Below the pieces are notes generated by a model. It saw nothing but the letters and a program-made list of their open reading frames with translations, was not told where the DNA came from and made no database searches. A stretch of DNA of 64,000 bases, from positions 744,001-808,000 of the forward strand of contig NZ_CP090976.1 of NCBI RefSeq assembly GCF_021513235.1. The letters run 5' to 3'. Positions 5,947-52,232 of the stretch are shown one piece after another (the stretch's first letter is position 1; each line of letters opens with the position of its first letter). A program made the translations under genes and the position numbers. Source of the stretch: Kaistella sp. 97-N-M2. Its GTDB lineage: Bacteria > Bacteroidota > Bacteroidia > Flavobacteriales > Weeksellaceae.

Positions 5947-6294
5947 TTAGAATTTTAGTCCGCCTTCTCTTGCACCGTCTGCTAAAGCTTTCACTCTACC
6001 ATGGTATACAAATCCGTTTCTGTCGAACACTATTTTTTCAATTCCAGCAGCTTTGGCTTTTTCAGCAATTGCTTTACCAACTTCTGCAGAGATTTCTACT
6101 TTGTTTCCTTTAGCAGACAACGCTCGGGAAGAGGCTGAGGCTAAGGTTTTACCGTCTTTATCGTCGATTAATTGCGCGTAAATTTCTTTATTGCTTTTGT
6201 AAACAGATAATCTTGGTAATTCAGCAGAGCCGGAGATTTTTCCTCTAACTCTTCTTTTAATTCTATTTCTTTTTTGTACTTTGCTTAGTGCCAT
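5947..6294 (-). CDS. rplR: 50S ribosomal protein L18
   Basis: L18 binds 5S rRNA in the central protuberance. The 115-residue protein has the basic N-terminus [20 protein letters not shown], the [19 protein letters not shown] strand and the C-terminal signature [20 protein letters not shown] with the ending EGGLKF. It lies between rplF and rpsE. The gene is intact and in normal context. Confidence 0.97.
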
Positions 6295-35666: not shown

Positions 35667-35786
35667 GGGCAGCTTTATCCGCCCTCCGTTCCCGCTTTTT
35701 TTGGTTTTGCGGCCAGAGCAGAGCACTCCATCAAAATCTTCCGAAGCCGCAAAACCAAAAAAGAGCTCCACTCAGGTCGGGCTGCG
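35667..35786. repeat. structured dispersed element, copy A1
   Basis: The left flank (35667-35695, starting GGGCAGCTTTATCCGCC) matches copy A2 in 27 of 29 positions and the right flank (35757-35786, AAAAAAGAGCTCCACTCA then GTCGGGCTGCG) in 29 of 30. Between them a perfect 17-bp stem (35697-35713 with 35746-35762) has a sequence quite unlike that of A2. An outer GCAGC/GCTGC pairing is possible. The T-run lies in the 5' arm on both strands, so this is not a classical terminator. It fills the gap between the GlmU-like gene and trhO. Confidence 0.8.
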
Positions 35787-35831
35787 ACACGAGCGGTCTT
35801 CTGTTGAAACTTACTTTTAGGTAAAAAAAAA

Positions 35832-36992
35832 TTAGAATTCTGTATAAATATGTTTCAGCATATTTCTGTCGGCTTCTGTAAACTCAACTTTCCGTCTCGC
35901 CATCGCTAATTTTGCAACTTCGTAGGCTTTTTCCAAATTGAATTTTTCATCACCTTTCATGCCACCCCAGGAAAAACTTTCGATCAGATTGGGCGGAAAT
36001 CCACTTTTAAAAATATTCGCCGCCACGCCCACCACAGTTCCTGTATTTAATTGTGTATTGATCGCGGTTTTCGAATGATCGCCCATAATTAATCCCGCAA
36101 ACTGAAGTCCGGTGTTCGCGAAACGCTTCGTTCTGTAATTCCACATTTTCACTTCAGCGTAATTATTTTTTAGATTTGAGGAATTGGTGTCTGCACCAAT
36201 ATTGCACCATTCGCCTATCACCGAATTCCCGACAAAGCCGTCGTGCCCTTTATTCGAATAGCCAAAGATCACGATGTTATTAACTTCGCCACCAACTTTA
36301 CAGTGCGGACCAATGGTGGTCGCGCCATAAATTTTCGCGCCCAAATTGAACTTAGATTCTTCGCAAAGCGCAATCGGGCCGCGCAGGTTACAGCCTTCCA
36401 TCACTTCGGCGTTTTTACCAATATAAATTTTACCCGTTTTTGCATTTAACGTCGAAAATTCTATCGTTGCGCCTTCTTCGATAAACAAATCGGCGGGTTC
36501 ACCCAGAAATCCGTTCGTCGCCGAAAGTTCTGCCGAATTTCTGCCTTTCGTCAACAGTTCGAAATCAAAATTAATGGCTTTTTCATTATAAGAAAATAGA
36601 TCGGTTGGCTGCTTGAAAAACAGAAGTTCCTCATGAATGTCCGTCATTTTTTCGATCTGATTCAGGGAGAAATTTTCGATGTTGATTTTCGCCGCAAGCA
36701 GTTCGTTTTCATAAACGAGCGCTTCGCCTTTTTGCAGCTCTTTTATCTGCTGCAAAACGTTTTCACTCGGCAGAAAATTCGGAACAAGCAAAAGACTTTC
36801 TGTGTTTGCAGGCTTGGGAAATTTTTCCTGCAGATAATCTTCCGTGAGGTACGAAATCTCCTCTGTATTCAGCAATTTCTGCCATCTTTCCGAGAAAGTT
36901 AACATTCCGCACCGCATTTCTGCAACTGGTCTTGTAAAAGTAAGCGGTAAAAAATCTTCCCAAAACTGGGCATCAGAAAAAGCAATTTGCAT
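35832..36992 (-). CDS. GlmU-like putative sugar nucleotidyltransferase with left-handed beta-helix
   Basis: The 386-residue protein starts with a shortened nucleotidyltransferase-like domain: MQIAFSDAQFWEDFLPLTFT then RPVAEMRCGMLTFSERW. The C-terminal half, from about residue 185, has hexapeptide repeats (FSTLNAKTGKIYIGKNAEVM, CNLRGPIALCEESKFNLGAK, VVGVAANIFKSGFP). This is the GlmU-family protein common in Flavobacteriia (PF13562 type), which lacks the complete GlmU active-site set, so its substrate is unknown. A TAAATTTG box lies at 37068-37075. Element A1 separates it from trhO. Confidence 0.85.
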   Translation of the reverse strand: MQIAFSDAQFWEDFLPLTFTRPVAEMRCGMLTFSERWQKLLNTEEISYLTEDYLQEKFPKPANTESLLLVPNFLPSENVLQQIKELQKGEALVYENELLAAKINIENFSLNQIEKMTDIHEELLFFKQPTDLFSYNEKAINFDFELLTKGRNSAELSATNGFLGEPADLFIEEGATIEFSTLNAKTGKIYIGKNAEVMEGCNLRGPIALCEESKFNLGAKIYGATTIGPHCKVGGEVNNIVIFGYSNKGHDGFVGNSVIGEWCNIGADTNSSNLKNNYAEVKMWNYRTKRFANTGLQFAGLIMGDHSKTAINTQLNTGTVVGVAANIFKSGFPPNLIESFSWGGMKGDEKFNLEKAYEVAKLAMARRKVEFTEADRNMLKHIYTEF

Positions 36993-37067
36993 AGAATAAA
37001 TTTGATGATGGATAAATGGTAATCGCTGACAGACAATAAATTCCTGGATGCCAGCGCGAACTTCTTA

Positions 37068-37075
37068 CAAATTTA
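37068..37075 (-). promoter_or_regulatory. -7 box of the GlmU-like gene
   Basis: TAAATTTG on the minus strand lies about 75 nt upstream of the start, directly after the rpmE2 terminator. No TTTG was found at the matching -33 position. Confidence 0.45.
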
Positions 37076-37080
37076 CAATA

Positions 37081-37108
37081 AAAAAAATCTCTCAGAAAAA
37101 CTGAGAGA
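37081..37108 (-). terminator. terminator of rpmE2
   Basis: An 8-bp stem (37088-37095 with 37101-37108), an A5 loop and seven T on the minus strand after the stem. It lies 27 nt after the rpmE2 stop. Confidence 0.85.
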
Positions 37109-37134
37109 CCTTAATATCTTTATGGACGCAAGAA

Positions 37135-37386
37135 TTACTTTGCGTATTTTTTGTATTTGTTCATAAATTTATCAACTCTACCGGCAGTGTCGACTAATTT
37201 TACTTTCCCTGTGTAAAAAGGGTGAGAAGTTGAAGAGATCTCCATTTTGATCAATGGGTAAGTTTCTCCTTCGTACTCTATAGTGTCTTTTGTATCTGAT
37301 GTAGATTTGCAAAGAAACATTTCGTCGTTACTCATATCTTTGAAAACAACAAGTCTATAATTTTCCGGGTGGATTCCGTTTTTCAT
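37135..37386 (-). CDS. rpmE2: 50S ribosomal protein L31 type B
   Basis: L31 bridges the large-subunit central protuberance and the small-subunit head. The 83-residue protein begins [20 protein letters not shown] and contains [20 protein letters not shown] then [10 protein letters not shown], the type B pattern. It lacks the zinc Cys set of type A L31. Type B L31 replaces type A under zinc limitation in some bacteria; whether that happens here cannot be seen. It has its own promoter and terminator. Confidence 0.96.
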
Positions 37387-37459
37387 AATAAAAAGTTTAA
37401 TAAATTAAAGTTTTGCTTCAGAAATAGTAATGGACATTCCTCTGCTAATTTTTAGACCG

Positions 37460-37490
37460 CAAAAGTACGAATATTATTTTAATCTGCAAA
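37460..37490 (-). promoter_or_regulatory. promoter of rpmE2
   Basis: TTTG (37487-37490), a 19-nt spacer and TACTTTTG (37460-37467) on the minus strand. The leader is about 70 nt. This promoter occupies the stretch where an upstream start of the divergent lipoprotein gene could be drawn. Confidence 0.78.
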
Positions 37491-37536
37491 CACCGACAAA
37501 GATAAATTATAAATTTTTATGTTCAACAATTTTAAT

Positions 37537-37544
37537 TAAATTTG
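37537..37544 (+). promoter_or_regulatory. -7 box of the beta-helix lipoprotein gene
   Basis: TAAATTTG lies 23 nt before the ATG at 37568, supporting this start. Confidence 0.5.
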
Positions 37545-37567
37545 AAACCACATCCTATTTTAATGTA

Positions 37568-38953
37568 ATGAATAAATTTAAGATTTTTCTCGGCCTTGCC
37601 TTTTGGGCGCTTTTAACGGCAGTCAGCTGCAACAGAGACGACATCAGTTTCGACGGTCCTTCCCAACTGCTGCGTTTTTCCGCGGATACCGTTTTTTGCG
37701 ATACCGTTTATAATCAGGTTCGGTCCGAAACGTATGCCGTTAAAATTTACAATAATGAAGATAAAGATGTGCTGATTCCGAAAATTTCGCTTGGTAACGG
37801 AAATGCTTCTCTGTATCGGATTAATGTGGATGGCAAAGCCGGAACCGATTTCACCGATATTCCGCTGCGAAAAAAAGACAGTTTATATATTTTTGTAGAA
37901 ATCGCGCCTGTTGCCAACGCGCCCGAAGCGATCGCAGAAGATCAAATTAATTTCGAAACTCCCGCCGGTACGCAACACGTCACCTTATTTTCCGTGGTGC
38001 AGGACGCCGAATTTTATATTGAAAGCGACACCAATCCAAACATTTTAGCAAATAATACCACCTGGACGAACGATAAAGCCAAAATCATTTTCGGTGATTT
38101 AACACTGGATGCAGGTAAAACTTTAGACATTCAAAAAGGAACGAAAGTCTATTTTTTTAAAAACAGTGGTTTAAAAATCTCCAAAAACGCCAAGTTGAAT
38201 GTCATGGGCGATCTGGACGAGGAAGTTATTTTCCGCGGCGACCGCAACGATACAAAATACGACACCATTCCGAAAAACTGGAAGGGAATTTCTTTCGCTG
38301 CCGGCGCTCAGCTGGATATGAATTATGCCAGAATTTTCGGCGGCACAAGAGGTTTGGAAATGATGGAAACCACAGCAGTCATTAACAATTCAATTATTCA
38401 TACACACCAGGAATACGGAATTTATGCGGTAAAATCGACCCTCACTGCGAAGAATCTCGTCATGAATAATTGTGGTGAAGCCGATCTCGGAATTTTCAAA
38501 GGTGGAACGTACAACATAACGCATTCCACCCTGGCCAACTATTGGGATTTTAACACCTCCCTTCCTTCGTTAGGAATTTTCGCGACGAACGACTATCAAA
38601 ACGATGCCAATTTAGAAACAGGACCGCTTACTTTAAATATCAGCAATTCTATTATTTACGGCATCAAGGATAATGCAATTGAATTTAAACCAACCGCGGG
38701 ACAAATTTTCACCACGGTATTTCAAAACAATTTGTTGAAATACGGAGCAGACGCAGGTTACAATGTTGATCCTTCCAATATCAAAAATGAAGATCCCAAA
38801 TTCCAGAATTACTTCACCCAGAAAATGAATTTGAGGCTAAAAGATGATTCGCCGGCAAAAGGCAAAGGAAATGTAGCCGTGGCAGCCAGCGTCCCTTTGG
38901 ATATCGTGAAGGTTTCGAGAACTGTTTCACCCACCCTTGGTGCTTACCAATAA
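37568..38953 (+). CDS. right-handed beta-helix repeat lipoprotein
   Basis: The 461-residue protein starts with a lipoprotein signal (MNKFKIFLGLAFWALLTAVS then CNRDD) and is probably membrane anchored. From about residue 200 it has short beta-strand turns with Asn/Gly-rich repeats (LKISKNAKLNVMGDLDEEVI, TAVINNSIIHTHQEYGIYAV, LNISNSIIYGIKDN), typical of a right-handed parallel beta-helix. Its ligand is unknown. An ATG 46 codons upstream gives a non-signal-like N-terminus that overlaps the rpmE2 promoter, so I rejected it. The esterase gene follows after 21 nt. Confidence 0.82.
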   Translation: MNKFKIFLGLAFWALLTAVSCNRDDISFDGPSQLLRFSADTVFCDTVYNQVRSETYAVKIYNNEDKDVLIPKISLGNGNASLYRINVDGKAGTDFTDIPLRKKDSLYIFVEIAPVANAPEAIAEDQINFETPAGTQHVTLFSVVQDAEFYIESDTNPNILANNTTWTNDKAKIIFGDLTLDAGKTLDIQKGTKVYFFKNSGLKISKNAKLNVMGDLDEEVIFRGDRNDTKYDTIPKNWKGISFAAGAQLDMNYARIFGGTRGLEMMETTAVINNSIIHTHQEYGIYAVKSTLTAKNLVMNNCGEADLGIFKGGTYNITHSTLANYWDFNTSLPSLGIFATNDYQNDANLETGPLTLNISNSIIYGIKDNAIEFKPTAGQIFTTVFQNNLLKYGADAGYNVDPSNIKNEDPKFQNYFTQKMNLRLKDDSPAKGKGNVAVAASVPLDIVKVSRTVSPTLGAYQ

Positions 38954-38974
38954 GCAGTTTTATAAACTTCGCGC

Positions 38975-39787
38975 ATGAAACTGATCAGCTGTCTTACCTT
39001 ATTTTTTTTGATTCTAACCGGTTGCAAAAGTTCAAAACCCCTTCAGGATCCGATTCCTGCGCATGAAACTTTTTCGATAGACTCTAAATTTCTGGGGGAA
39101 ACAAGAACTGTTAATGTTTGGAAACCTTCTAATTACGCCAGCTCCTCCGAAAAATTTCCGGTACTTTATATGGCAGATGGTGGCATTAAAGAAGATTTTC
39201 CGCACATTGCCAATACGCTTTCAGACCTCATCAAATCTAAAAAAATTCCGCCCATCATACTGGTCGGGATTGAAAACACGCAACGGAGACGAGATTTAAC
39301 GGGCCCAACTCAGGTTGAAGAAGACAAAAAAATTGCGCCTGTTGTTGGTGGTTCGAAGGCGTTTCGCGCATTTATTGGCGAAGAACTTTTTCCTTTTATC
39401 GAAAAAAAATACAGAACTTCACCAAAGAAAGGAATAATAGGCGAATCGCTTTCCGGACTTTTTGTGATGGAAACTTTTCTGCACGATCCCGAAATGTTCG
39501 ATGATTACATCGCTTTCGATCCCTCGCTGTGGTGGAATGATCATGATTTAGTAAAAAATGCAGCTGAAGAGTTAGCAGATTTTTCCGGAGCGGAAAAAAC
39601 ATTGTGGTTTGCAGGTTCGGGCACGGAAGGTATTTCAGAATATACGGTTGAAATGGAGAAAATTTTAAAATCTGCCAATCTTCCGCACGTCAAATGGCAT
39701 TATTCACCCGAACTGAAAGAGGACCACGGCACCATATTTCGGGCGACCAAAGAGAAAGCTTTAATCTGGACCTTTGGACAGAAATAA
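38975..39787 (+). CDS. lipoprotein esterase of the esterase D/PF00756 type
   Basis: The 270-residue alpha/beta-hydrolase has a lipoprotein signal (MKLISCLTLFFLILTGC). The nucleophile motif GESLSG is at about residues 155-160; PVLYMADGGIKEDFPHIANT forms the first strand and oxyanion region; the acid/His region is KWHYSPELKEDHGTIF. PF00756 enzymes include S-formylglutathione hydrolase, enterochelin esterase and feruloyl esterases; the substrate here is unknown. It forms a likely operon with the preceding beta-helix gene and the following MazG-like gene (start codon directly after its stop). Confidence 0.85.
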   Translation: MKLISCLTLFFLILTGCKSSKPLQDPIPAHETFSIDSKFLGETRTVNVWKPSNYASSSEKFPVLYMADGGIKEDFPHIANTLSDLIKSKKIPPIILVGIENTQRRRDLTGPTQVEEDKKIAPVVGGSKAFRAFIGEELFPFIEKKYRTSPKKGIIGESLSGLFVMETFLHDPEMFDDYIAFDPSLWWNDHDLVKNAAEELADFSGAEKTLWFAGSGTEGISEYTVEMEKILKSANLPHVKWHYSPELKEDHGTIFRATKEKALIWTFGQK

Positions 39788-40123
39788 ATGATAAACATGG
39801 AAATTACAACGCTTCAAAAAGAAGTAGACGACTGGATAAAAACCGTCGGTGTCCGCTATTTTAACGAGCTCACCAATATGGCGATGCTCACGGAAGAAGT
39901 GGGAGAAGTTGCACGAATTATTGCCCGACGATATGGCGAACAAAGCGAGAAAGAAAGCGATAAAAATAAAGATCTGGGCGAAGAATTAGCCGATGTTTTG
40001 TTTGTAACTTTGTGCCTTGCCAATCAAACGGGTACCAATCTGCAGGAAGCTTTCGACAGAAAAATGAAAGTTAAAACCCGGCGAGACGCAGAAAGGCACC
40101 AGAATAACGAAAAACTCAAATAA
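39788..40123 (+). CDS. MazG-like nucleotide pyrophosphohydrolase
   Basis: The 111-residue protein has the all-alpha NTP-PPase motifs: MLTEEVGEVARIIARRYGEQ with the EExxE metal-binding part and LGEELADVLFVTLCLANQTG with the second ExxD. Such enzymes hydrolyse nucleoside triphosphates to monophosphates and clear non-canonical nucleotides. The ATG directly after the esterase stop (39788) or the one three codons later could be used. It is followed by aroA after 15 nt. Confidence 0.9.
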   Translation: MINMEITTLQKEVDDWIKTVGVRYFNELTNMAMLTEEVGEVARIIARRYGEQSEKESDKNKDLGEELADVLFVTLCLANQTGTNLQEAFDRKMKVKTRRDAERHQNNEKLK

Positions 40124-40138
40124 ATTCGACAGAAATAA

Positions 40139-41371
40139 ATGCTTTTAGAAAAATCTAAATTAATTGGCAACAAAACCATAGAAATCAGCGGTTCGAAAAG
40201 CATTTCGAATCGTTTGTTGATTCTGCATCAGCTTTTTGAAAATTTCAGTATTGAAAATTTGTCCAATTCTCAGGACACTCAACTTTTGGCGGCGGCTTTA
40301 CAAAGCACTTCCGAAGTTATCGACATTCATCACGCCGGAACTGCCATGCGATTTCTGACTTCTTACTACGCAATTCAGGACGGTAAAACAGTTATTTTAA
40401 CAGGTTCCGACCGCATGAAACAAAGACCGATTAAATTTTTGGTTGAGGCTTTGCGCGATCTGGGTGCCGAAATTACCTATCTCGAAAATGAGGGATTTCC
40501 ACCGCTGAAAATCACGGGTAAAAAATTAGCAAAACGCTCCGTTACAATTCCCGCAAACATTTCCAGCCAGTTTATTTCCTCGCTGATGCTGATCGGTGGC
40601 AAACTTGAAAACGGTCTGGAAATAAATCTGGCAGGAAAAATTACCTCAAAACCTTATCTTGAGATGACTTTGAAAATCTTGAGAACGCTCGATATTGCTT
40701 ATGAATGGGAAGAAAATACAATCAACATATTTCCCACAACCGAATTTCTAAAAAACACTCATAACATTCCATTTGTCGTAGAAAGTGACTGGAGCTCGGC
40801 CTCCTATTTTTACTCCCTTGCCGCGATCTCACGCGAAACGGTAAATTTAAAAAGCTTCAAACCTTATTCGCTACAGGGTGACTCGGTTTTAAAGGAAATC
40901 TACTGGCAATACTTTGGCGTTAACACGATTTCCGAAGGTGCAGAGTCCCGCATTTCGCTCTTACCAGACAACTTTTTTAATTTTCCGGATAAAATTAATT
41001 TAGATATGAATGACTGTCCGGATATCGCGCAGACGCTTTGTGTAACAGCAACGGCACTAAAAATTCCCTTTGAGATCACGGGTTTATCTACCTTAAAAGT
41101 AAAAGAAACAGATCGGCTTTTGGCTTTGAGAAATGAACTATTTAAAATCGGCTGTATATCGGAAATTACGGAGGATTCGATTTCTTCTCTCAAATTTTTC
41201 GAACCGAACGAAAATATCTCCATCCAAACGTACAACGACCACCGAATGGCCATGAGTTTTGCGCCGTTTTGTTTAGTAAAAAAACTCAACATCGAAGACG
41301 ACGCAGTGGTAGAGAAATCCTATCCCGATTTCTGGGCTAACTTTAACCAAGTCATCGAAAAAACAGATTAA
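40139..41371 (+). CDS. aroA: 3-phosphoshikimate 1-carboxyvinyltransferase (EPSP synthase)
   Basis: AroA transfers the enolpyruvyl group of PEP to shikimate-3-phosphate, the sixth step of the shikimate pathway. The 410-residue protein has SGSKSISNRLLILHQL at the N-terminus, HAGTAMRFLTSYYA, and SDRMKQRP, SSQFISSLMLIGG and LKVKETDRLLALRNELFKIG, the two family signatures. The product is slightly shorter than the E. coli enzyme, as in other Bacteroidota. It is followed by an SDR gene after 3 nt, so they are probably co-transcribed. Confidence 0.95.
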   Translation: MLLEKSKLIGNKTIEISGSKSISNRLLILHQLFENFSIENLSNSQDTQLLAAALQSTSEVIDIHHAGTAMRFLTSYYAIQDGKTVILTGSDRMKQRPIKFLVEALRDLGAEITYLENEGFPPLKITGKKLAKRSVTIPANISSQFISSLMLIGGKLENGLEINLAGKITSKPYLEMTLKILRTLDIAYEWEENTINIFPTTEFLKNTHNIPFVVESDWSSASYFYSLAAISRETVNLKSFKPYSLQGDSVLKEIYWQYFGVNTISEGAESRISLLPDNFFNFPDKINLDMNDCPDIAQTLCVTATALKIPFEITGLSTLKVKETDRLLALRNELFKIGCISEITEDSISSLKFFEPNENISIQTYNDHRMAMSFAPFCLVKKLNIEDDAVVEKSYPDFWANFNQVIEKTD

Positions 41372-41374
41372 AAA

Positions 41375-42166
41375 ATGACCATTATCATTACAGGAGCTTC
41401 AGCAGGAATTGGTTTCGCTTTGGCTGAATTTTTCGGGAAAAAAGGACATCAGGTCTTTGGATTGAGCAGAAAACCTGCAAATTCTGACCTTTTTAAAACC
41501 ATTCTCACCGATATTACGGATAATCAACAGGTTCAAGCCGCCGTTTCAAAAATTTTAGAAACGGAGAAGCAGATCGATGTCCTCATCAATAACGCCGGAA
41601 TGGGCATGGTTGGCGCGGTGGAAGACTCAACACAAGACGAAATCCTAAGATTATTCAATTTAAATTTGGTGGGTTCTGTGCAAATGATGACCGCCGTTTT
41701 ACCGACAATGCGAAAACAAAACGCCGGAAAAATCATCAATATCTCTAGCATTGGGTCGGAGATGGGTTTGCCTTTCCGGGGGTTTTATTCGGCCTCGAAA
41801 TCGGCGCTGGATAAAGTAACGGAAGCCATCCGTTACGAAGTTGCTCCCTGGAACATCGAGGTTTGTACCCTTCATTTAGGCGACATTAAAACAAAAATCG
41901 CGGAGAATAGGGTAAAAACAAAGGTTTCCGAACCTTACCAAAAAACATTTTCAAAAGTTTACGAATTGATGAATGCGCACGTGGAAGACGGAACGGAGCC
42001 TGCGGAAGTCGCCATTTACATCGAAAAACTTCTGAATAAAAAATCGTGGAAGGCCCATTATTACTTCGGAAAATTCGGACAAAAAATTGGAGTGCCGTTG
42101 AAATGGGTACTGCCGCAGAATGTGTACGAAAAGCTGATGAAGAAATACAACAATCTGGACTCATAA
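41375..42166 (+). CDS. SDR family oxidoreductase
   Basis: The 263-residue protein has the NAD(P)-binding TIIITGASAGIGFALAEFFG, the NNAG motif (VLINNAGMGMVG) and the catalytic YSASKSALDK (Tyr-X3-Lys), with the Ser in NISSIGSEMG. It is a classical short-chain dehydrogenase; the substrate is unknown. It starts 3 nt after aroA and may be an operon partner without being part of the shikimate pathway. Confidence 0.9.
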   Translation: MTIIITGASAGIGFALAEFFGKKGHQVFGLSRKPANSDLFKTILTDITDNQQVQAAVSKILETEKQIDVLINNAGMGMVGAVEDSTQDEILRLFNLNLVGSVQMMTAVLPTMRKQNAGKIINISSIGSEMGLPFRGFYSASKSALDKVTEAIRYEVAPWNIEVCTLHLGDIKTKIAENRVKTKVSEPYQKTFSKVYELMNAHVEDGTEPAEVAIYIEKLLNKKSWKAHYYFGKFGQKIGVPLKWVLPQNVYEKLMKKYNNLDS

Positions 42167-42208
42167 ACGATTCTATATTTTGTACTTAGGTAAAAAAAGA
42201 AGTTATCT

Positions 42209-42236
42209 CCTGGGGAATCCAGGTATTATTTTTTAT
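42209..42236 (+). terminator. weak terminator after the SDR gene
   Basis: A 5-bp stem CCTGG/CCAGG with a GGAAT loop (42209-42223) is followed by a T-rich stretch. The stem is short, so this is a weak call. Confidence 0.4.
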
Positions 42237-42257
42237 CTTTAATAAAACTTTAAAATG

Positions 42258-42932
42258 ATGAAAATATTTTTCACATTGGCGTTAAGTATCTTAACATTTT
42301 ATAGTGCGGCGGCACAGATCAGTTACAACGAAGCGTACCGCTTCAATAAATTTATGGATCGGGTAAATTCACCGCAGGGCCAACAGCTTACATACGGCGA
42401 TATCGACGGGACCGCGTATTTTACAAAAACTTTTGTGCCCGCGACAATCGAAAACGCCACGAGTTCGATTAAGGCACGATACAATATGTACACGGATACT
42501 GTGGAATTGCTTCAGGATGAGAACATTTTTGAATTGCCAAAATCTGCGAAATATTCCCGGATTGTATTTCAAAAGCCCACTTCTACGCTGCTTTTCATCA
42601 ATGAAGCATCTCTACCTGCGGGCTATTATTTCGAACTTTTAAAAGGAAAATTCACTTTGTTGAAAAAGACGAAAACGGAATTTCGGGAAGGTTCCAAGGC
42701 GGTTAATTCGTTCACTCCGGCAATTTCCCCGAGTTTCGTCGCGACCAATCCAATTTACTATATCAAAAATGAATCGGGATACATTGAAGTACCAAAAAAA
42801 ATAAAAGATCTCGCAAACCTTTTGCCCGATCAAAAAGATGCAATCGCCAATTTCGACAAAAAAAGTAAGATAAAACTGAACGTGGAAAGCGACCTGATCA
42901 AATTGACGCAGTTTTTAAATACCTCAAAGTAA
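42258..42932 (+). CDS. secreted protein of unknown function
   Basis: The product is 224 residues (225 if the ATG at 42255 is used) with a signal peptide (MKIFFTLALSILTFYSAAAQ). The mature protein contains FMDRVNSPQGQQLTYGDIDG, a strand-rich middle (SRIVFQKPTSTLLFINEASL) and a Lys-rich end. No known domain was recognised. It is alone between a weak terminator and the convergent metF, from which it is separated by a bidirectional hairpin. Confidence 0.7.
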   Translation: MKIFFTLALSILTFYSAAAQISYNEAYRFNKFMDRVNSPQGQQLTYGDIDGTAYFTKTFVPATIENATSSIKARYNMYTDTVELLQDENIFELPKSAKYSRIVFQKPTSTLLFINEASLPAGYYFELLKGKFTLLKKTKTEFREGSKAVNSFTPAISPSFVATNPIYYIKNESGYIEVPKKIKDLANLLPDQKDAIANFDKKSKIKLNVESDLIKLTQFLNTSK

Positions 42933-42983
42933 AGTGAAATTTTTTCAACGGAAATAGTATAAAGTTCTTTAGTAATTGAACGA

Positions 42984-43015
42984 AAAATCAAAACCATATT
43001 TCCTTGTGGTTTTTA
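42984..43015. terminator. bidirectional terminator between the secreted protein gene and metF
   Basis: A 7-bp stem AAAACCA/TGGTTTT (42990-42996 with 43007-43013) with A/T-rich flanks on both sides serves the two convergent genes. Confidence 0.6.
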
Positions 43016-43025
43016 AATATTCTTT

Positions 43026-43982
43026 CTAAAAAAGTTCTCCAGCGATCTTCTTAATGTTATCGCTTTTTCCCATAGAATAGAAATGCAGCACAGGAACACC
43101 GAAATCTAACAGTTCCCGACACTGATTGATGGTCCACTCGATTCCAATCTGTTTAACCGCAGCGTTGTCTTTTGCTTTTTCTACCGCCGAAATCAAATCT
43201 TCCGGCAGATCGATTTTGAAAACTTTCGGCAGCATTTGCAGATGACCTTTTGTGGCAATCGGTTTGATGCCGGGGATAATCGGCACGTCGATTCCAATTT
43301 CCCGCGCCTGTGTCACGAAATCAATGAACTTTTTATTCTCGAAAAACATCTGCGTCACTACGTAATCTGCACCGGCATCCACTTTTTCTTTCAACCATTT
43401 CAGGTCGTAATTCATGGACGGTGCCTCAATGTGTTTCTCCGGATAACCCGCCACACCAATACAGAATTTATTGCTTTCCTCGCAAATTCTGTCGTCGTGA
43501 AGGTATTTTCCGCGGCCGAGATCATTCATTTGGCGCACAAGATCCATAGCGTTTTTGTGCCCACCAACGGTCGGCTCAAAATATTGCTGACCTTTCATCG
43601 CATCACCACGCAACGCCATTACATTTTCGATGCCCAGATACATACAGTCTACCAAAAGATATTCGGTTTCCTCCTGCGAAAAACCGCCACACAAAACGTG
43701 CGGAACAGTATCTACATTATATTTATGCTGAATCGCGGAACAAATCCCCAAGGTTCCAGGCCGCATCCGGGTGACTTTGCGCTCCATTAAACCATTACCT
43801 TTATCCAGATAAATATATTCCTCGCGCGACGTCGTGACATCGATGAACGGCGGTTTAAATTCCATAAGCGGATCGATGTTTTTGTAGAGATCTTCGATTC
43901 CGATTCCTTTTTGTGGCGGTACAACCTCGAGGGAAAATAAGGTTTTTCCGTTGGCGTTTTTTATGTGTTCTGTGATTTTCAT
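43026..43982 (-). CDS. metF: methylenetetrahydrofolate reductase
   Basis: MetF reduces 5,10-methylene-THF to 5-methyl-THF, the methyl donor for MetH. The 318-residue protein carries FSLEVVPPQKGIGIEDLY, the typical start with the catalytic Glu, DYVVTQMFFENKKFIDFVTQ, and PIIPGIKPIATKGHLQMLPK, all in family order. It is the last gene of the methionine cluster and is separated from metH(C) by a 372-nt gap that holds element A2. Confidence 0.95.
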   Translation of the reverse strand: MKITEHIKNANGKTLFSLEVVPPQKGIGIEDLYKNIDPLMEFKPPFIDVTTSREEYIYLDKGNGLMERKVTRMRPGTLGICSAIQHKYNVDTVPHVLCGGFSQEETEYLLVDCMYLGIENVMALRGDAMKGQQYFEPTVGGHKNAMDLVRQMNDLGRGKYLHDDRICEESNKFCIGVAGYPEKHIEAPSMNYDLKWLKEKVDAGADYVVTQMFFENKKFIDFVTQAREIGIDVPIIPGIKPIATKGHLQMLPKVFKIDLPEDLISAVEKAKDNAAVKQIGIEWTINQCRELLDFGVPVLHFYSMGKSDNIKKIAGELF

Positions 43983-44354
43983 GTTGGCGTTGCGAGTACG
44001 TGAAGTATTTTTTATGGTTTGTTTTTTAATATTATAATTGCCCTGACTAAGTAAAATGTTTTTTTGGGCAGCTTTTTCCGCCTTCCGTTCCCGCTTTTTT
44101 TCTTAAAATTTCTCCGACATCCTTTCCCCTGCAAAAATTTTAAGAAAAAAGAGCTCCACTCAAGTCGGGCTGCGGATTGTGCGTACAATTAATCTTTTCA
44201 ATTATTTAGAAAATTTCCATTCTCTTTTTGATATCGCTTTTTCAAAGTTTGTCGGAATATTACCCTAATTGCAACGGGCTTCGCTCCTTGCTTTTGATCG
44301 CGCCCTTTCAGGGCTTTGTCCGTGCTAATTAATTACACCTCGTGGCGGCTTTTC
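43983..44354. other. 372-nt gap between metH(C) and metF
   Basis: The gap contains element A2 (44066-44174). The rest has no gene or recognised promoter box. Nearer metH(C), a small hairpin GCCCT/AGGGC with a TTC loop lies at about 44304-44316 and a GGGCTTCGCTCC stretch lies next to it. I see nothing else. Confidence 0.6.
44066..44174. repeat. structured dispersed element, copy A2
   Basis: The left flank 44066-44094 and right flank 44145-44174 are almost identical to those of copy A1. The central stem, 44096-44111 with 44135-44150, is a perfect 16 bp built on CTTAAAATTT, whereas A1 has GGTTTTGCGGC at this place. The pairing is kept while the sequence is replaced. As in A1, the T-run is on the 5' arm of either strand, so a terminator role is unlikely. 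Confidence 0.8.
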
Positions 44355-48097: not shown

Positions 48098-48132
48098 TTT
48101 TTTCTTTTAATTCGAAGAACAAATTTTTATTT

Positions 48133-48230
48133 TAGCCCCGATTGCAGCGACATCCTTTTTTGCATATTCCATAATTTTCTTATTGATTACAAAATTTTCC
48201 AGCAAAAAAGATATAGCGGAAAGCGGGACG
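48133..48230. repeat. structured element B, possibly related to A1/A2 in reverse
   Basis: The sequence starts TAGCCCCGATTGCAGCGAC and ends AGATATAGCGGAAAGCGGGA, around a stem CTTTTTTGC/GCAAAAAAG (48155-48163 with 48202-48210) and an inner AATTTT/AAAATT pairing. The layout (conserved-looking flank, T-run, paired centre, A-run, conserved-looking flank) equals that of A1/A2. The reverse complement of its left flank shares the pattern AAAAAAG...CAA-TCGGG-CT with the right flank of A1/A2. It fills most of the metZ-metH(N) gap. Confidence 0.6.
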
Positions 48231-48279
48231 GGTTTTGTTTTGAAGCGAAATTTTCCTGCTCCTTATTTCTAAAATTTTG

Positions 48280-52033: not shown

Positions 52034-52046
52034 AAAAAAAGTATAT

Positions 52047-52146
52047 GTTATCTTCACCCATATTGGGTAAGAATGTAGCACCTTCTCCGTTTCCGAAGGG
52101 TTGCCAAGGTTTCATAGAGTCTTATCTCTCCACCTTTCTTAATAAC
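52047..52146 (-). promoter_or_regulatory. SAM-I (S-box) riboswitch aptamer
   Basis: Read on the minus strand the segment carries the S-box features in order: P1 5' strand GTTATT, AAGAAAGGTGGAGAGA, CTCTATGAAACC, TTGGCAACC, GGTGCTACATTCTTACC, and the P1 3' strand GATAAC. P1 pairs 52141-52146 with 52047-52052, with one G-T pair. The aptamer precedes the metX-hom-metZ-metH-metF cluster, the expected regulon. SAM binding is expected to lower expression. Confidence 0.9.
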
Positions 52147-52232
52147 ATTTTCAATATGTAAATGAACTGAATCTGGTGCAAAGGAAAGAATTATAATAAG
52201 AACACACAAACTTTAATAAAATTTTTATTCCC

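Follow-up and report, generated by a model that had tools for sequence, protein, structure and literature searches.

The window analysed here is a 64,000-nucleotide stretch of the genome of Kaistella sp. 97-N-M2 (G000, a single 2.87 Mb contig; the window is G000:C1:744001-808000, and G007, G172 and other such labels denote other genomes), and our subject is a pair of foldback elements within it, A1 and A2. As judged by sequence comparison, A1 and A2 are members of a family-restricted type (the A type) of Flavo-1-like quasi-palindromic intergenic repeats, Flavo-1 being Rfam family RF01705. Elements of this type have conserved arms with asymmetric mismatches and a bulge, their arms undergo paired changes at orthologous sites, their heads are freely exchanged and their number varies between species, from low-copy to 53 copies. 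The reading that we favour, at a probability of about 45%, is that each copy is a DNA foldback read by a putative protein. In the mechanism that we infer, a copy would act as a foldback of DNA (a hairpin or cruciform), most likely of the purine-rich model strand, and a putative trans-acting protein would recognize this foldback by its bulge and by the mismatches of its arms, in a role akin to that of repetitive extragenic palindromic (REP) and bacterial interspersed mosaic element (BIME) units as docking or processing sites. The head would be exchangeable because it matters only by closing the hairpin; any palindrome could then take its place, for example if a further palindromic repeat is inserted or the template is switched at the foldback.

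The first-pass annotation of the window had described A1 and A2 as elements with conserved flanks around exchanged, still perfectly paired central stems, and this description proved accurate (Table 1). The left flanks are 95% identical (40 nt) and the right flanks 97% identical (30 nt), and between them A1 carries a stem of 17 bp (GGTTTTGCGGC/GCCGCAAAACC with a T6/A6 collar) and A2 a stem of different sequence of 16 bp (CTTAAAATTT/AAATTTTAAG with a T6/A6 collar). For both elements the model strand is the reverse complement of the window's + strand, which at these two sites is the top strand.

Table 1. Positions of A1, A2 and related or comparison features in the window.
Feature	Position	Strand	Details
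A1, whole foldback	35667..35786	- (model strand)	G000:C1:779667-779786; covariance-model score 85.5 bits; top strand runs TTTTGGGC...GGGCTGC
A1, conserved arm	35667..35695		GGGCAGC...CCCGC (top strand)
A1, T/A collar and variable head	35696..35762		GGTTTTGCGGC stem
A1, conserved arm	35763..35785		GAGCTCC...GGGCTGC (top strand); first base is the bulged G
A2, whole foldback	44066..44174	- (model strand)	G000:C1:788066-788174; covariance-model score 89.6 bits
A2, conserved arm	44066..44094		top strand
A2, T/A collar and variable head	44095..44150		CTTAAAATTT stem
A2, conserved arm	44151..44173		top strand; first base is the bulged G
Flavo-1 (RF01705) copy, sister type	48130..48234	+	63.6 bits
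S-adenosylmethionine (SAM) riboswitch	52045-52148	-	77.5 bits; with relatives, the RNA yardstick

Architecture, paired change and distribution

The genome-wide search that the first-pass annotation had proposed places A1 and A2 in a dispersed family. The right-flank pattern, with up to three mismatches, occurs at 23 places in the own genome, against 0 for a reversed-pattern control, and a covariance model built on 22 of these places gives 46 matches at E<=0.001, of which 37 reach 70 bits or more (the strong copies); several of the nine weaker matches (<70 bits) are Flavo-1 copies. At up to two mismatches the pattern is present in all 25 genomes of the genus examined, at 2 to 53 places each, and in 0 of 15 genomes that belong to other families of the order; at up to one mismatch, 80 genomes carry it among 148 sampled from the family, covering 17 of 33 genera. 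Of 119 genomes scanned in the order, 10 have a model match at E<=1e-12, and all 10 belong to the own family. Among the matches listed, carriers of the exact pattern are mainly Chryseobacterium, Epilithonimonas, Kaistella, Halpernia, Amniculibacterium and Cloacibacterium, and also include one Flavobacterium record and several Bacteroidota assemblies. The sole exact match in a viral collection lies on a viral contig of 36.6 kb (L481).

Each copy is an imperfect foldback. From the GCNN/NNGC outer stem inward it has a CCG/CGG stem, a mismatch between purines, a 2-bp stem of the type RY/RY, a loop of GGA x GGGA, one bulged base, then the T/A collar and the variable head (N, any base; R, purine; Y, pyrimidine). 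Along the model strand, the 5' side reads GC-NN outer stem, CCG, mismatched purine, CYT, GA, RY, GGA, GCT, bulged base and T5 before the head, after which follow A5, AGC, GGGA, RY, GG, ARG, purine, CGG, 4-7 unpaired bases and NNGC. Several of these parts vary as pairs among the 91 copies that could be parsed. The outer dinucleotide is AG/CT in 63, GC/GC in 15, AC/GT in 6, AA/TT in 4 and GA/TC in 3; the 2-bp stem is GT/AC in 55, AC/GT in 26, GC/GC in 5, AT/AT in 3 and broken in 2. The purine mismatch is A.G in 73 and G.A in 18, with no other combination.

In the alignment of 112 matches, pairing holds in 97.1% of 2544 cells; shuffles give 82.4% and slid partners 41-59%. This alignment was fitted to the structure, which biases it toward pairing (L021, with a dissimilar left arm, was excluded from the alignments). 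Two-sided change is seen at 22 of the 23 model pairs. When the 20 core pairs are considered in all 112 copies, 2193 pairing cells include 255 two-sided and 6 one-sided changes; the preservation of pairing despite sequence change, which the first-pass annotation had noted for the central stem, thus extends to compensatory change in the arms. The informative core cells, counted in 91 of the 112 copies (21 were unparsed), are Watson-Crick in 907 of 910 cases; the others, 2 G.T and 1 A.C on the model strand, are too few for the active strand to be separated on this basis. Neither of the outcomes that the annotation had taken as refuting its proposal, a lack of further copies in the genome and a lack of significant covariation in the stem, was observed.

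Orthologous sites and kinship with Flavo-1

We compared 32 copies of G000 and 41 of G007 together with their flanks (5 of the 37 strong copies of G000 and 2 of the 43 of G007 have no context) and assigned 17 orthologous pairs by flanking sequence. Among 255 base pairs in these, both sides have changed with retention of pairing in 34 and otherwise in 1, and a single side has changed in 5. Of the 17 outer stems, 12 are identical between the two species, 2 are truly exchanged and 3 have decayed on one side, and the A.G mismatch is swapped to G.A, or the reverse, in 6 of the 17. The complete exchange of the central stem with retention of pairing, which the first-pass annotation had deduced from A1 and A2, is often seen in the family, including at these orthologous sites: by eye, the heads seem unrelated in nine pairs (L184/L350, L202/L349, L178/L347, L192/L335, L206/L348, L185/L355, L207/L328, L203/L352 and L190/L331), and a crude string similarity, which overstates the difference for short heads, is below 0.7 in 12 of the 17.

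The A1 site was compared in a wider set of 30 genomes, of which 8 carry an element in the same orientation (2 of these with a different foot and head), 14 carry none and 8 are unjudged, the second gene not being found adjoining. Here G018 and G019 have arms and right flank in common and unrelated heads; in G019 the head is another dispersed palindrome, and an extra piece adjoins the left arm. Among the 41 copies of G007, six carry one and the same head sequence, combined with three 2-bp stems and two outer stems, and two of these six copies sit where the G000 ortholog has a different head, although small heads may resemble each other by convergence. A dispersed palindrome, GTCATTGCGAG...GCAATGAC, was found both adjoining elements (at the A2 site in other genomes) and as their head.

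We conclude from sequence that the A type is kin of Flavo-1, because the two share an architecture, are joined by intermediate variants and replace each other at orthologous sites; this kinship and this exchange go beyond the first-pass annotation. Flavo-1 has the same parts in the same order on the same strand: a CCG/CGG stem, an A.G mismatch, 2-3 bp, a GA-type loop, an RY/RY 2-bp stem, a GGA-type loop, a 3-4 bp foot, a bulged C, a T/A stem and a variable head. The foot is ATC/GAT in Flavo-1 and GCT/AGC in the A type, which differs further in having an outer GCNN/NNGC stem with a covarying dinucleotide and a 3-bp CYT/ARG stem, and in being found in one family only in the model scan of the order. 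Variants with an AATC/GATT-type (AAT/ATT) foot bridge the two types (L019 and L091; copies read, not counted). Under the Flavo-1 model A1 scores 32.7 bits and A2 36.0 bits, both below the gathering score of 42, which a few relatives reach (42.2 bits for the L113 copy at 6188 and 42.5 bits for G007:1869131). Flavo-1 matches at E<=0.001 number 61 in G000, 65 in G007 and 37 in G172, some of which are A-type copies. Flavo-1 pairs as strictly as the A type, with 399 of 405 cells Watson-Crick in the copies of G000 and G007, counted in the best-pairing register and hence with a bias toward pairing; an A.G or G.A mismatch is present in 38 of the 39 copies parsed (2 of the 41 were not).

Exchange of types is seen at two sites of the window. 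Among 29 genomes, the A2 site holds the A type in 6, Flavo-1 in 5, a third type, T3, in 4 (by eye) and no recognized element in 14, one of which retains a Flavo-1 remnant (by eye); every recognized element has the same orientation. The site of the window's Flavo-1 copy holds the A type in 6 other genomes, Flavo-1 in at least 5 including the own and T3 in 2 (by eye); in 3 genomes the two flanks are present without an element, and the remaining genomes are unjudgeable or have other genes. All elements at this site again share one orientation, the reverse of the one seen at A2. T3 (GGGCGTG...GGGATTTCC...CTCACGC), recognized by eye and by a loose pattern only, resembles the A type in its TTTTGGGC start, GCNN/NNGC-like outer stem, TTTCC-type core and occurrence at the same two sites, and differs in an extra inner stem on one side. 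The loose pattern occurs 3 times in 400 kb of G000 (L251, L253 and L256, one of them doubtful) and 0 times in samples of G007 and G172.

DNA foldback, transcript element or mobile palindrome

A DNA-level hairpin is favoured because G.U pairs are scarce, the heads carry GNA triloops of the DNA type and orientation follows the compositional arms of the chromosome beyond what gene direction accounts for. The RNA yardstick for the first of these is the SAM riboswitch of the window with its relatives (30 copies of the family, pairs taken from the RNAalifold structure), in which G.U pairs make up 39 of 760 pairing cells (25 of 730 if a single mostly-G.U pair is left out) and 38 one-sided stand against 85 two-sided cells. 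GNA triloop motifs are found in 23 of 29 short heads on the model strand (shuffle mean 7.2, maximum 14) and in 1 of 29 on the other strand, in a count that leaves out 44 of 73 heads that are long or in which the parser retained arm letters; an earlier count on other copies gave 15 of 21 (shuffle 5.9, maximum 12), and GNRA motifs occur in 0 of the 29. An extraordinarily stable DNA hairpin is described for d(GCGAAGC) (PMC6582339).

Orientation agrees with the compositional-skew arms for 35 of 43 copies in G007, 20 of 23 in G172 and 22 of 28 in G000, the last count leaving out 9 of 37 copies in an ambiguous zone at 1.0-1.75 Mb; with these included, 27 to 30 of the 37 follow the arms, depending on the position of the switch. 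Skew was measured in these three genomes; copies were also seen in G013. Neighbouring genes, here and below, are script-called open reading frames, not annotation. When gene direction is taken into account, 50 of 62 copies follow the arm against 35.1 expected (z 3.9), and so do 9 of the 11 copies for which both neighbours are antisense (p 0.0014; 7/7 in G007 and 2/4 in G000).

A number of observations weigh against a DNA-level role. The borders of the skew arms were chosen with the copies in view, although G007 and G172 are insensitive to this choice, and the Flavo-1 copies of G007 follow the arms only weakly (30/49). Arms centred on dnaA give no orientation bias (19/37 in G000, 23/43 in G007 and 12/23 in G172). 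In all three genomes dnaA lies away from the sign change of the skew, which is at about 2.2 Mb in G007, so that a link with replication holds only if the origin is at the skew switch and not at dnaA. Folding energy does not separate DNA from RNA, both parameter sets preferring the model strand. Strict Watson-Crick pairing may also stem from block copying between copies, from transcription of both strands or from a need for pairing on each, and the 2-bp stems may tolerate no G.U in RNA either. Finally, of the 51 copies that have a sense gene on their left, 34 have the stop codon of that gene no more than 21 nt from the top 5' end, whereas the stop of a right-hand antisense gene comes that near in 1 of 22 (Fisher 4e-7); given stop codons that abut this end, a role at the level of the transcript fits.

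Such a role would be that of a structured RNA or mRNA 3'-end element acting within the transcript of the immediately upstream gene, through stability, processing or factor-dependent termination. We regard this as unlikely. It gains from the position of 42 copies, of the 70 with both neighbours called, between co-directional sense genes, and from the standing of Flavo-1, which the Rfam entry RF01705 classes as a small RNA (sRNA) and which a 2010 table lists as likely RNA and not likely cis-regulatory. It has to contend with the 13 of these 70 copies that lie antisense between co-directional genes and the 8 between divergent genes, with near-absence of G.U pairs where the yardstick has 39 of 760, with the lack of a T-tract after the hairpin and with a transcriptome of F. 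psychrophilum in which Flavo-1 copies are placed sense or antisense to transcripts and many outside any (PMC9723704). A literature search limited to open-licence papers found none that treats Flavo-1 as DNA.

Transposition offers a different account of the orientation, as the fossil of insertion, and of the paired arms, as a requirement of the enzyme: the palindrome would be mobilized as a single strand, in the manner of REP or IS200/IS605 elements, by a putative trans-acting enzyme on the lagging-strand template. The 2 to 53 pattern places per genome of the genus, the filled and unfilled orthologous sites, the skew-arm orientation and a T-run that precedes the top 5' end of 64 among 73 copies would all suit it. 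Pairing is kept at sites common to two species, however, where dead insertions would decay one-sidedly; no association with Y1 transposase genes is seen at the 40 loci examined, and intergenic flanks are so diverged that neither a target duplication nor an exact empty site can be defined. We consider this account distinctly unlikely. Less probable still is that the repeats have no function and that template switching at palindromes copies arm onto arm, yielding pairing without selection. That heads are replaced as perfect palindromes, and that one head sequence occurs with different arms within a genome, speaks for it, but copying of the arms would erase the mismatches and the bulge, and these persist next to changing pairs (A.G or G.A in 91/91 A-type and 38/39 Flavo-1 copies, the bulge likewise); arms and position are, moreover, kept across species. 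Among the three options that the first-pass annotation had offered, REP-like mobility, taken as mobilization by an adjacent TnpA-REP gene, was not supported, a structured RNA is less likely and a site for a putative chromosome protein fits best.

A broader proposal, which we put forward as doubtful, is that Flavo-1 and the A type form one superfamily of DNA foldbacks, not RNAs, with tens to about 100 copies per genome, under selection on DNA pairing and served by one putative binding protein; the tip would be a cassette copied between sites while the arms stay, and the types would replace each other at fixed addresses. Flavo-1 is counted among the most abundant bacterial sRNA families (PMC9029176); to our knowledge, no function has been assigned to it. 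Should it and its relatives prove to be DNA sites, the Rfam entry would be misfiled and a chromosome-wide binding system of Bacteroidota would await its protein. Paired arm change at orthologous sites, together with head exchange, makes it possible to test directly, by counting, whether DNA secondary structure is under selection in living genomes, an opportunity that seldom arises.

Comparison with known palindromic elements

The A type shares with REP/BIME sequences the form of short intergenic palindromes with mismatches, present in tens of copies and in several types per genome. Units of the REP-associated tyrosine transposase (RAYT) system carry, where the hairpin has its foot, a 5' GT[AG]G tetranucleotide (PMC6006769), and a REP survey lists at least two Flavobacterium genomes (PMC12306157). 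The A type has no such foot, ending instead in TTTTGGGC and GC[AG]; it is longer and does not flank Y1 transposase genes. Mobilization by an adjacent TnpA-REP gene, a form of the REP-like mobility that the first-pass annotation had entertained, was rejected on 40 of the approximately 80 PF01797 (Y1_Tnp) matches listed for the genus: 2 of the 40 loci have a strong copy within 2.5 kb on each side, where about 2.8 are expected from the density in the own genome, and both (G006 and G024, with equal geometry) are one orthologous site. The copy-rich genomes G018 and G019 have no PF01797 match, and the repeats that adjoin the Y1 transposase genes examined differ in sequence from the A type.

Intrinsic termination was likewise rejected: of 73 copies, 7 on the top strand and 1 on the bottom strand have at least five T among the 9 nt that follow the hairpin; the first-pass annotation's view that these are not classical terminators is thereby upheld. 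By the criteria for insertion sequences and miniature inverted-repeat transposable elements, filled and unfilled sites are seen, in intergenic flanks too diverged for borders or a target duplication to be placed. Integron attC sites are imperfect foldbacks with a conserved asymmetry, a freely variable tip, a strand bias along the chromosome and R'/R'' boxes of RYYYAAC/GTTRRRY. The A type resembles them in the first four of these features but has no RYYYAAC/GTTRRRY boxes in its 22-copy consensus and occurs as single scattered copies, not cassette arrays (no integrase search was made).

Two REP-like arrangements were observed in passing. In the own genome, a Y1 transposase gene (L209, G000:C1:551766-557101) lies between arrays of GAGTCGCGGAGCGACGA units, with 18 direct copies on one side. 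Beside A2, at 44267-44354 of the window, are the short REP-like palindromes GCAACGGGCTTCGCTCCTTGC and GATCGCGCCCTTTCAGGGC, and related units surround Y1 transposase genes elsewhere in the genus.

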